Positions 31,609 through 41,594 of a stretch of DNA of 64,000 nucleotides are shown in pieces. The DNA lies in contig NZ_JACJLC010000002.1 of NCBI RefSeq assembly GCF_016901955.1, forward strand, positions 1 to 64,000, read 5' to 3'. This stretch comes from Pseudoflavonifractor phocaeensis. Its GTDB lineage: Bacteria; Bacillota; Clostridia; Oscillospirales; Oscillospiraceae. Under the pieces are notes generated by a model. It ran no database searches and was not told the origin of the DNA. It saw only the letters and a list, made by a program, of their open reading frames with translations. The translations under genes were made by a program, and so were the position numbers. Position 1 is the stretch's first letter, and the number at the start of each line of letters is the position of its first letter.

Positions 31609-31637
31609 TTGACAAAGCGGCCATCTGGTAGTAAAGT
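31609..31637 (+). promoter_or_regulatory. pyrG promoter
   Basis: TTGACA (31609-31614), 17-bp spacer, TAAAGT (31632-31637). Transcription should begin near 31644, just before the leader hairpin. Confidence 0.8.
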
Positions 31638-31646
31638 ATCTGCCGT

Positions 31647-31712
31647 GAACGAGGGCGTTCCATGAAATGAGGCCGTATCGCCTCTTTTCCTGGACGCCCT
31701 CGATTTTTTATT
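31647..31712 (+). promoter_or_regulatory. pyrG leader: GANGNN-loop hairpin overlapping a terminator
   Basis: The hairpin GAAC-GAGGGC-GTTC (31647-31660) uses bases that also form the 5' arm of an intrinsic terminator (CGAGGGCGTTCC 31650-31661 with GGACGCCCTCG 31692-31702, then TTTTTTATTTT). A second small stem, GAGGC-cgtatc-GCCTC, lies in the terminator loop. The two structures exclude each other, so stabilising the first hairpin would permit readthrough into pyrG. The glnA leader has the same design. Confidence 0.8.
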
Positions 31713-31734
31713 TTCTGTTTTGGGAGGGGAAGGG

Positions 31735-38500: not shown

Positions 38501-40134
38501 GCCGTCACTCCACCCCCGGCGTTACTCTCATCTCTCCCCCGCCCCACCACGATATCTACTCCATTGAGGATCTGGCCCAGCTCATCTACGACCTGAAATG
38601 CGCCAACCGTCAGGCCCGGATCTCGGTGAAGCTGGTCAGCGAGGCGGGTGTGGGTACCATCGCCGCCGGGGTGGCAAAGGCAGGCGCCCAGGTGGTCCTC
38701 ATCTCCGGCTATGACGGAGGCACCGGAGCCGCTCCCCGCACCTCCATTCACAACGCCGGCCTGCCCTGGGAGCTGGGCCTGGCGGAAACCCACCAGACCC
38801 TCATCCAGAACGGTCTGCGCTCCCACGTGGTGGTGGAGACCGACGGCAAGCTGATGAGCGGCCGGGACGTGGCCATCGCCTGTATGCTGGGGGCTGAGGA
38901 GTTCGGCTTCGCCACCGCACCTCTGGTGACCATGGGCTGTGTCATGATGCGGGTGTGTAATCTGGACACCTGCCCTGTGGGAGTGGCCACCCAGAACCCG
39001 GAGCTGCGGAAACGCTTCGCCGGCAAGCCGGAGTATGTGGTCAACTTCATGCGCTTCATCGCCCAGGAGCTGCGGGAACACATGGCCAGGCTGGGGGTGC
39101 GCACCGTGGAGGAGCTGGTGGGCCGCACCGACCTGCTGGCCGTCCGCAGCCCCGCCGTCAACCACCGGGCCGCCACCGTGGACCTGTCCGCCCTGCTGGA
39201 CAACCCCTGGGCTGGTCAGGAAAAGACCCACTTTGACCCCGCCGACGCCTACGACTTCCACCTGGAGGATACGGTGGACCTGAAGGTGCTGGAAAAGAAG
39301 CTGGGGACCGCTCTGACAAAGGGAACTCCCAAGCGGCTGGAGGTAGCGGTCTCCTCCACAGACCGGGCGGTAGGCACCATTCTTGGCTCCGATATCACCC
39401 GGCTCCACAGCGGTGCCCTGGCCGATGACACCTTTACCGTCAAGTGTACCGGCGGCGGCGGCCAGTCCTTCGGCGCTTTCCTGCCCCGTGGCCTCACCCT
39501 GGAGCTGGAAGGCGATGCCAACGACTACCTGGGCAAGGGCCTCTCTGGCGGCAAGCTGGTGGTCTATCCCCCCAAAAACAGCACCTTTGACCCGGCGGAA
39601 AACATTCTGGTAGGCAACGTTGCTCTGTACGGCGCCACCAGCGGCCAGGCCTTCCTGAACGGGGTGGCCGGGGAGCGGTTCTGTGTCCGCAACTCGGGGG
39701 CCACCGCCGTGGTGGAGGGCGTCGGCGACCACGGCTGCGAGTATATGACCGGCGGTCGGGTGGTGGTGCTGGGTCCCACCGGCAAGAACTTCGCCGCCGG
39801 CATGAGCGGGGGCGTGGCCTATGTGCTGGACGAGGACCGGGATCTGTACCTGCGGCTGAACAAGGCTCTGGTGTCCATGGACCCTGTGACCGAAAAGCAC
39901 GACGCCGCTGAGTTGCGGGAACTGATCCAGGCCCACGCCGATGCTACCGGCTCGGCCAAGGCCAAGGCCATCCTGGCCGAGTTTGAGCGCTATCTGCCCC
40001 TCTTTAAGAAGATCCTGCCCCATGACTACGACCGGATGCTGCGTACCATCGCCCAGTACGAGGAGAAGGGCATGAGCCGGGAGGAGGCCCAGGTGGAGGC
40101 CTTTTACGTCAATACCCACCAGAAGGGGGAATAA
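35596..40134 (+). CDS. gltB: Glutamate synthase large subunit
   Basis: This 1512-aa subunit turns glutamine and 2-oxoglutarate into two glutamates. The N-terminal class II amidotransferase nucleophile is Cys21 in HDSCGIGAV, implying removal of a 20-residue propeptide. The central domain is followed by the FMN-binding synthase barrel ([36 protein letters not shown]), a [3Fe-4S] site ([15 protein letters not shown]) and the C-terminal beta-helix GXXGXXXG repeats ([29 protein letters not shown]). The ATG at 35596 is eight bases after GAAAGGGG. gltD follows after 2 bp. Confidence 0.98.
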   Translation: [1512 protein letters not shown]

Positions 40135-40136
40135 CC

Positions 40137-41594
40137 ATGGGAAAGCCCACTGGATTTATGGAATATCAGCGTCAGGGGAACCCCTCCCAGTCCCCCCTGG
40201 AGCGAATCAAGCATTATAACGAGTTCCACCCCCGGCTCAGCCGGGAGGACCGCCGGCGGCAGGGAGCCCGGTGCATGGAGTGCGGGGTACCCTTCTGCCA
40301 GTCGGGGGCGGTGCTGAATGGCATGGTATCCGGCTGCCCCCTCCACAACCTGATTCCCGAGTGGAATGACCTGGTGTACACCGGCAACTTTTCCCACGCC
40401 CTGGAGCGGCTGCTGAAGACCAACAACTTCCCCGAGTTTACCGGTCGGGTGTGCCCCGCCCTGTGTGAGGCGGCCTGCACCTGCGGGCTCCACGGGGACC
40501 CGGTCACCGTAAAGGACAATGAGTTGGGTATCATTGAGGACGCCTGGACCAGAGGGCTGGTGAGCCCCCGTCCTCCCAGATCCCGCACCGGCAAGCGGGT
40601 GGCGGTGGTGGGCTCCGGCCCCGCCGGCCTGGCCTGCGCCGACCAGCTCAACCGCCGGGGGCACTCTGTCACCGTCTTTGAGCGTGAAGACCGGCCCGGC
40701 GGCCTGCTGATGTACGGAATCCCCAATATGAAGCTGGAAAAAAATATTGTCCAGCGCCGTCTGGACAAGATGACCGCTGAGGGCGTGGAATTCCGAACCG
40801 GGGTGGATGTGGGTAAAGGTATGTCCGCCCAGGAGCTGACCGCCCAGTTTGACGCCGTGGTGCTGTGCTGCGGCGCTACCCAGCCCCGGGATCTGTCTGT
40901 GCCCGGCCGGGATCTGGATGGGGTTTGGTTTGCGGTGGACTTTTTGAAGGAGACCACCCGCTCTCTGCTGTCCCACCAGCTGGCACCGGGCACCTACCCC
41001 TCCGCCCAGGACAAGCAGGTGGTCATCGTGGGCGGCGGCGACACCGGCAACGACTGCGTGGGCACCTGCATCCGCCACGGCTGTGCCAGCGTCACCCAGC
41101 TGGAGATGATGCCCAAGGCCCCTGACCGGCGGACTGAGCAAAACCCCTGGCCGGAGTGGCCCCGGGTGTGCAAAACCGACTATGGCCAGGAGGAGTCCAT
41201 CGCCCTGTTTGGTCACGACCCCCGGGTGTACGAGACTACAGTGTCCCGGCTGCTGGGGGACCAGGAGGGCAAGCTGACGGCGGTGGAAACCGTCCGTCTG
41301 GGTCCTGACCACCAGCCCATCGCCGGCACCGAGGAGGTGCTGGAATGTCAGCTGCTGCTCATCGCCGCCGGATTCCTGGGCGCCCAGGCCTATGTGCCTC
41401 AGGCCTTCGGAGTGGAGCTCACCCCCCGCTCCACCATGGTCACCCAGGAGGGAAGCTACGCCACCGGCATCCCCGGCGTCTTCGCCGCTGGCGACGGACG
41501 GCGCGGCCAGTCCCTGGTTGTGTGGGCCATCCGGGAGGGCCGGGAAGCCGCCCGGGACGTGGACCAATATCTGATGGGATATACCAATTTATAA
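40137..41594 (+). CDS. gltD: Glutamate synthase small subunit
   Basis: This 485-aa subunit feeds electrons from NAD(P)H to GltB. The N-terminal half holds the two [4Fe-4S] clusters ([39 protein letters not shown]). FAD binds at [17 protein letters not shown] and NAD(P)H at [13 protein letters not shown], with the C-terminal [19 protein letters not shown] block. It starts 2 bp after gltB and ends at a strong terminator, closing the glutamine/glutamate block. It is a paralogue of nfnL at 57 kb. Confidence 0.97.

Follow-up and report, generated by a model that had tools for sequence, protein, structure and literature searches.

The window analysed here is a stretch of 64,000 nucleotides of the Flavonifractor-like bacterium Pseudoflavonifractor phocaeensis (family Oscillospiraceae; assembly GCF_016901955.1, contig NZ_JACJLC010000002.1, positions 1 to 64,000), in which the genes pyrG, glnA, a gene for an ANTAR RNA-binding protein, gltB and gltD follow each other on the + strand, as identified by Pfam and NCBIfam profile searches. 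Small hairpins with a six-base loop (hexaloop) are located in the leaders of pyrG and glnA and upstream of gltB, and their probable role as targets of the ANTAR protein is the subject of this report. The features of the region, in window coordinates, are the following.

31609..31637, + strand: predicted sigma-70-type promoter of pyrG (TTGACA 31609-31614, TAAAGT 31632-31637; -35 and -10 boxes kept in relatives)
31647..31660, + strand: hexaloop hairpin GAAC-GAGGGC-GTTC, candidate ANTAR target of pyrG (folding; conserved and covarying)
31650..31708, + strand: intrinsic terminator of the pyrG leader (3' arm 31692-31702), overlapping the loop and 3' arm of the hairpin
31735..33345, + strand: pyrG, CTP synthase, glutamine-hydrolysing (TIGR00337, 793 bits)
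33452..33480, + strand: predicted promoter of glnA (TTGACA 33452-33457, TATACT 33475-33480)
33496..33509, + strand: hexaloop hairpin GAAC-GAAGGC-GTTC, candidate ANTAR target of glnA (folding, conservation)
33494..33541, + strand: intrinsic terminator of the glnA leader (3' arm 33523-33535), overlapping the hairpin
33578..34909, + strand: glnA, type I glutamine synthetase (TIGR00653, 568 bits)
34938..35480, + strand: ANTAR RNA-binding protein with an aspartate-less pseudo-receiver (PF03861; receiver site G55; AlphaFold)
35492..35507, + strand: hexaloop hairpin GAGAC-GATGTT-GTCTC between the ANTAR gene and gltB, 12 nt past the ANTAR stop (35480)
35510..35542, + strand: intrinsic terminator before gltB, abutting the hairpin (35510-35536 by the narrower limits; folding)
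35596..40134, + strand: gltB, glutamate synthase large subunit (ATG 35596; Pfam/NCBIfam)
40137..41594, + strand: gltD, glutamate synthase small subunit (TIGR01317, 690 bits)

In the pyrG and glnA leaders alike, the promoter is followed by a 14-nt hexaloop hairpin and then by a terminator, and the two hairpin blocks, 1.85 kb apart, are near-identical. This arrangement had been described in an earlier sequence-only reading of the window and was borne out, as were the shared loop pattern G-A-N-G-N-N of all three hairpins and the location of the ANTAR gene between glnA and gltB (ANTAR domain E 6e-17). If transcription is assumed to start 7 nt past the -10 box, the predicted transcript reaches the hairpin after about 3 nt in pyrG and 9 nt in glnA, and for this reason no room is left upstream for a second hairpin.

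The whole leaders of pyrG, glnA and gltB folded better than 200 of 200 dinucleotide shuffles each (z -7.1, -7.3 and -4.9, respectively). The short hairpins alone were unexceptional, an equally good fold being reached by 19 (pyrG), 7 (glnA) and 47 (gltB) of 200 shuffles. The terminator fold amounted to -35.7 kcal/mol against -15.1 kcal/mol for the hairpin-enforced fold in the pyrG leader, and to -33.4 against -10.0 kcal/mol in the glnA leader; in both leaders hairpin and terminator are mutually exclusive. Since the isolated hairpin is weak (-4.4), something must hold it if readthrough is to occur. At gltB, by contrast, the two elements occupy the gap behind the ANTAR gene side by side without overlap and coexist in the minimum-energy fold.

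For a count in leaders of the same genome and its relatives, the hairpin was required to have a stem of four or more pairs and a C-G closed six-base loop of the form RRNG... A leader qualified if it was 150 nt or longer and its match lay close to the start of the gene. Several leaders per genome were admitted and identical ones counted once; loci L001, L002, L116 and L117 were left out, and the window pyrG and glnA leaders were taken in (as L068). The hairpin was present in 38 of 55 glnA, 39 of 89 pyrG and 11 of 21 gltB leaders, compared with means of 1.3, 3.9 and 1.3 and maxima of 5, 13 and 5 in 100 dinucleotide shuffles. Among the 76 named loci collected by similarity to the window ANTAR protein, the ANTAR gene directly follows glnA in 74 (74 of 74 checkable, since contig ends truncate the remaining two); the hairpin, here with AA, AG or GA at loop positions 1-2, was found in 35 of these 74 glnA leaders (shuffle mean 2.2, maximum 6 in 60 shuffles). 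Sites were also chosen independently of pairing, by the loop motif and its distance from the -10 box only. Such a site occurs in 38 of the 41 promoter-bearing glnA leaders (of 55 glnA), 6-32 nt past the -10 box, and in 34 of 55 pyrG leaders (of 123 pyrG). The flanks of motif sites chosen without regard to pairing pair in 68% (glnA), 58% (pyrG) and 75% (gltB) of cases versus 39% anywhere.

Covariation of the stems had been put forward as a check of the sequence-only reading, and the hairpins proved to be conserved with covarying stems. In 55 distinct hairpins, chosen by loop motif and promoter distance, 71.4% of the stem cells were paired, versus 64.9% in shuffles and at most 49% when the alignment was slid. 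The covariation score was 0.307 (0.208 shuffled) and the number of cells changed on both sides 48 (25 shuffled), values reached by 0 of 500 shuffles in either case; the score is lowered by five hairpins that were aligned in a shifted register and retained. RNAalifold, applied to 37 promoter-to-terminator leaders (of 48 listed, window glnA and pyrG included), gave a single structure, a 4-bp stem with a six-base loop. Among leaders with both a hairpin and a T-run, the hairpin overlaps the terminator in 31 of 33 glnA, 20 of 25 pyrG and 3 of 6 gltB cases. For some leaders this count ended too soon, at an early T-run, and for this reason the window pyrG leader is scored as an exception despite a real overlap.

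The loops of glnA leaders in relatives read GAAGGC, AAAGGC, AAAGAC, AACGGC, GATGGT and AAGGGT, with G or A at position 1, mostly A at position 2, G at position 4 and a closing C-G pair; G4 and the C-G closure belong to the search rule. Upstream of gltB the loops AATGCA, AAGGCG, AATGGG and AACGGG were found in relatives, and two distant relatives show a frame AGC...GCU like that of the eut target, AAGAGC-GATGGT-GCTTTT (L065) and GGAGC-AGAGGC-GCTTCC (L067). A hexaloop with A1 and G4 is the ANTAR target loop described by Ramesh 2012 (PMC3369931). The agreement with this consensus is partial: G4 and the eut-like frame of distant relatives match it, but the window loops have G rather than A at position 1, the single mismatch recorded in the sequence-only reading. 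Because position 1 is A or G across relatives, this mismatch can be regarded as a variant, and the G-initial loops of the window look like a local or lineage form of the A1/G4 loop. Judged from these comparisons, the leader hairpin is very probably an ANTAR target.

One ANTAR gene was detected in the genome to which the window belongs (99.9% complete, 292 contigs). The ANTAR domain of the product scores 61.6 bits against a Pfam cut-off of 27.3, and its predicted fold consists of a receiver-like domain and a three-helix ANTAR domain (AlphaFold pLDDT 90.7). The best Foldseek matches were Rv1626 (6e-10), EutV bound to RNA (1e-9) and AmiR (2e-6), with full-length TM scores of 0.43-0.61; the AmiR complex with AmiC (1qo0) is among them. 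The RNA-contacting residues of EutV were taken from the structure paper (PMC8934654), with a numbering offset of two applied here. Lys149 and Glu160, which contact G4, correspond to K139 and E150, and the plug residue Met172 to M162, all three invariant in 36 sequences. The phospho-acceptor aspartate was not found in the window receiver, which has G55; column 55 in 123 family proteins, a single ANTAR protein being counted per locus, contains G 74, S 19, N 12, T 10, D 3 and A 2 times. Since the phospho-aspartate is lost, kinase control as in EutV appears unlikely. The closest named relatives of the ANTAR protein come from an uncultured Eubacteriales genome (88%), an uncultured Flavonifractor (82%), Flavonifractor sp. 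AGMB03687 (81%) and An82 (80%). ANTAR genes occur in 90 of 150 genomes of the family; of 26 ANTAR-less genomes, three have a GlnA match of at least 70% identity (G136, G044, G016) and most others weaker or short matches, and the ANTAR gene and the window-type glnA seem often to have been lost together. In two genomes of the same genus (G118, G022) there is an additional glnA-ANTAR pair, which has a hairpin leader to itself (L052, L053) and does not occur in the genome of the window.

The inclusion of pyrG in the glutamine/ANTAR set, proposed in the sequence-only reading, is supported from several sides. Outside the genus, pyrG leaders contain a single hairpin and a terminator right behind the promoter with different stems, such as GAGAC-AACGGC-GTCTC (L104), GAGAC-AAGGAC-GTCTC (L107) and GAAC-AAAGAC-GTTC (L094), and within the genus the variant GGAC-AGAGAG-GTCC occurs in four genomes (L078-L081). 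In leader L032 a C-to-T change of the loop is matched by a G-to-A change in the terminator arm. A second type of pyrG, 63-67% identical to that of the window, has tandem hexaloop hairpins at most about 65 nt from the start codon and no obvious terminator downstream (G019, G050, G056, G074, G089, G133); this layout is that of the canonical dual ANTAR target. Two hairpins in tandem were counted in 10 of 89 pyrG leaders versus 0.07 in shuffles. Coordinates place an ANTAR gene on the pyrG strand, no more than 230 nt ahead of pyrG, in 18 genomes, and the order glnA-ANTAR-pyrG was seen in 12 of 14 loci examined, the ANTAR gene of five of the 12 being placed by earlier family matches and not by the locus BLAST. 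Because the glnA genes of these loci are 37-47% identical to that of the window and the ANTAR proteins 20-31% where BLAST matched, this is a sister arrangement and not the same locus. Among 107 of the 110 genomes with a pyrG match (the fragments in G048, G081 and G099 were left out), pyrG hairpins are present in 24 of 85 ANTAR-bearing and 1 of 22 ANTAR-less genomes (Fisher p 0.022, phylogeny not corrected).

The upstream hairpin of two in G117, the single call in ANTAR-less G009 and the calls in L143 and L149 by a looser definition were taken as noise. In type-2 pyrG leaders (L162, L161, L159; genus loci L085, L086) the tandem hairpins are situated just upstream of the ribosome site, and a complementarity noticed by eye in L162 (GTCCCAT/ATGGGAG) suggests a possible ANTAR control of translation rather than of termination.

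The 15-mer GAACGARGGCGTTCC has exact matches only at the pyrG and glnA leaders of the 3.5-Mb genome. Ten further matches with 1-2 mismatches appear by eye to lack promoter and terminator, and since the pattern gave 12 matches against 10 for a reversed control, the 15-mer alone is no evidence of a regulon. It was dropped in favour of a covariance model of promoter, hairpin and terminator, trained on the 37 leaders named above and run on this genome and on 20 genomes of the genus, and weight was placed on position, context and conservation. The best matches in the genome were glnA (76 bits) and pyrG (73 bits), scores that are high by construction because both leaders belong to the training set. 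They were followed by purF (38 bits, E 3.5e-4), a GlnQ-like ABC ATPase (30 bits, 0.013) and the ammonium transporter gene amtB (23 bits, 0.28), among the best 150 of 1018 first-look candidates that were scored; there were at least 28 matches at E up to 10, and seven besides glnA and pyrG were inspected. Profile searches confirmed the product families of purF (511 bits) and amt (424 bits); for the ATPase GlnQ was the best model yet remained below its cut-off. In the genus scan, in which 40 further loci were inspected and the remaining matches identified by coordinates or not at all, the model also detected second glnA copies, a sodium:dicarboxylate symporter gene (SDF family, G150, E 1.8e-5) and the leaders of asparagine synthase genes (asnB) in G153 (E 0.041) and G164 (E 0.048), the latter gene identified by profile search and the former by position and a class-II amidotransferase match.

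amtB was found in 13 genomes of the genus, and the hairpin in 12 of 12 leaders inspected, nine of them with the stem AGC-AGAGAC-GCT; the rule for this count was laxer (three pairs) and not set against shuffles, and the nine leaders that share the stem come from close relatives. Among the purF leaders of ten genus genomes, the hairpin is present in that of the window's genome and in G166, and a three-pair form closed by U-G, missed by the script and judged by eye, in G152 and G156; leader L419 is a palindrome, and five of the ten are without the element. purF was accordingly rejected as a general target. In G152 and G156, amtB and purF lie side by side and divergent from a glnA, with a leader element at each of the three genes. 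As judged from these matches, the regulon looks wider than first described, including purF, the GlnQ-like ATPase and amtB, to which relatives add asnB.

Two observations concern these additional genes themselves. The Pfam Amt match of amtB (L288/L440, C263:12470-13957) stops at residue 401 of 496 read, in an open frame of 609 amino acids; the tail resembles by eye the start of PII/GlnK, and the gene may encode an Amt-PII fusion. In G153 and G164 (L354, L355) the hairpin and terminator are followed, ahead of asnB, by a stretch with features resembling those of a T-box leader, and asnB may have two leaders in series.

Taken as a whole, the leaders are, in our judgement with good probability, attenuators of transcription that respond to the product of the ANTAR gene behind glnA, and the action of one ANTAR protein on the glnA, gltB and pyrG leaders, as the sequence-only reading had it, is supported by conservation, covariation and linkage. 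According to this model transcription would start about 3-9 nt before the C-G closed hexaloop R-A-N-G-N-N, and the hairpin would form once the 5' end leaves the polymerase. The unbound hairpin would be absorbed by the far more stable terminator and transcription would stop, whereas an active ANTAR protein would hold the hairpin, block the terminator and allow readthrough into glnA and pyrG. The same readthrough would operate elsewhere in the genome at purF, the GlnQ-like transporter and amtB, and the protein may also tune readthrough from glnA-ANTAR into gltBD. As the receiver is without a phospho-aspartate, the signal is probably not phosphorylation; at a guess, it could be a ligand, or else a partner of which glutamine synthetase itself would be one example. 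The set of genes, for uptake, glutamine and glutamate synthesis and the CTP, purine and asparagine enzymes, suggests that the protein reports glutamine shortage and would raise both the supply of glutamine and the capacity to use it. We infer the transcript starts, the binding, the signal and, for this genus, the mechanism at gltB; the direction, antitermination under nitrogen or glutamine shortage, we infer by analogy with NitR. On balance, and with clearly less assurance than for the attenuators as such, we favour the fuller proposal that in Flavonifractor-like gut Clostridia a single-hexaloop attenuator and a phosphorylation-independent ANTAR protein run a glutamine supply-demand regulon (ammonium and amino-acid uptake, glnA, gltBD, pyrG, purF, asnB), in which one 5' hairpin would suffice.

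Several findings weigh against these proposals. EutV is reported to achieve antitermination only by contacting both of two hexaloops and to lose it with a longer linker (PMC8934654), and the window terminator leaders have room for one; if one suffices here, this would be a new variant, and otherwise help would come from polymerase pausing or from another protein. All three window loops have G1, which is able to pair with position 6, and the folding program closes the hairpins one pair further (G1-C6 in GAGGGC and GAAGGC), leaving four bases in the loop; where relatives combine A1 with C6, this extra closing pair cannot form. The window protein has not retained the equivalents of EutV Arg142, Lys143 and Lys147. 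By the definition applied, 39 of the 74 named glnA-ANTAR leaders are without the hairpin, as are several glnA-ANTAR loci of the family (L046, L048, L049, L050), and since the hairpin is missing there, ANTAR control of glnA in such loci must use another element or none. Genome G136 (90% complete), in which no ANTAR gene was detected, has a full hairpin-terminator glnA leader (L380, G136:C53), and the pyrG hairpin is present in just 24 of 85 ANTAR-bearing genomes. Two of the five covariation measures were unremarkable, double-change pairs being reached by 320 and pair types by 51 of 500 shuffles, and the shuffle tests overstate independence because the sequences are related. The window gltB hairpin, which does not exclude its terminator either in the window or in the nearest relatives, is barely detected by the covariance model (11.4 bits, E 0.96). 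Finally, the leaders of thiS, rplJ, a hisZ/hisS-like gene, a thioesterase gene and greA also score weakly, thiS and look-alikes such as rplJ ranking next below amtB in the genome of the window; by eye those of rplJ, the thioesterase, greA and hisZ/hisS are look-alikes without a C-G closed ANTAR loop with a stem, and thiS (L289), with the loop and at most two pairs, was judged likewise.

The position of the hairpin at the extreme 5' end of the predicted transcript would also suit a very small riboswitch, or an initiation- or nucleotide-responsive terminator with the ANTAR gene as a bystander, and pyrG of Bacillus subtilis is indeed governed by CTP-sensitive reiterative initiation and attenuation (PMC4448216). 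The same element is however placed before genes of unrelated product (amt, glnA, asnB, purF), its hexaloop and C-G closure resemble the ANTAR target, no G run exists at the predicted start, and Rfam gave no match at the gathering score and one chance match at E 2.6; in 12 of 14 loci, moreover, the ANTAR gene separates glnA from pyrG, and this explanation is considered very improbable. Scarcely more credit is given to the view that only glnA and gltB are true targets and the pyrG hairpin is a drifting, functionless copy of the glnA leader. The near-identity of the two window blocks at a distance of 1.85 kb and the many ANTAR-bearing genomes without a pyrG hairpin speak for a copy, but stems of other sequence with the loop kept (GAGAC/GTCTC outside the genus, GGAC/GTCC within it), the compensated change in L032 and the 18 genomes with the ANTAR gene closely upstream of pyrG on the same strand do not agree with drift.

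The ANTAR protein could also bind and repress, by favouring termination or by controlling translation, at least at gltB and at type-2 pyrG. The coexistence of hairpin and terminator in the gltB fold and the tandem hairpins close to the type-2 pyrG start would be in line with this, and mycobacterial ANTAR targets have been reported to repress translation (PMC8164766). The mutual exclusion of hairpin and terminator in the glnA and pyrG leaders points instead to antitermination, and repression is regarded as unlikely, though less so than the two explanations above.

Antitermination by an ANTAR protein is known from related contexts. NitR of Clostridium saccharobutylicum is described as inducing the genes for glutamine synthetase (GS) and glutamate synthase (GOGAT) in this way on nitrogen limitation (review PMC6316151); the window system likewise ties an ANTAR protein to GS/GOGAT genes, but pyrG, purF and asnB are not named in the passage of that review on NitR. 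ANTAR targets have been predicted before ammonium transporters and glutamate and glutamine synthases (Ramesh 2012, PMC3369931). With EutV of Enterococcus faecalis the system shares the G4 hexaloop, the AGC...GCU frame in distant relatives, the overlap with a terminator and the ANTAR fold; it differs in having one hairpin instead of two in the terminator leaders, A or G at position 1 and no phospho-aspartate. AmiR of Pseudomonas aeruginosa has, like the window protein, a His at the position of EutV Tyr164, a further residue that holds G4. It is a phosphorylation-independent pseudo-receiver which, unlike the system described here, is held by AmiC and controls amidase genes. The cluster order glnA-nitR-glt is reportedly found in C. 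saccharobutylicum. The pyrG leader of B. subtilis also contains a terminator, but it depends on CTP-sensitive reiterative initiation (PMC4448216), and the window start has no G run.

Because ANTAR control of GS/GOGAT is already known, the new part would be pyrG and the other users of glutamine. Attenuation by a single hexaloop, a receiver without a phospho-aspartate and glutamine consumers in the regulon look new. No paper with "ANTAR" and "CTP synthase" as whole words was found, nor an ANTAR-pyrG link by title or start of abstract, in a search of mainly open-access papers. For ANTAR and purF one gene-dependence study of Acinetobacter, unrelated by its title, was retrieved, and no search for ANTAR with asnB was made. 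No Rfam family corresponds to the window leaders at the gathering score.

It was reported for EutV that the minimal ANTAR site is one hexaloop while antitermination still needs two, and the question was asked how widely single hexaloops are used (PMC8934654). The widespread single-hexaloop terminator leaders make this question directly testable with short templates, and their features offer sequence rules for finding such regulons. If the proposed regulon is real, transcript elongation would be the level at which these gut bacteria tie the synthesis of CTP, purines and asparagine to their glutamine supply.

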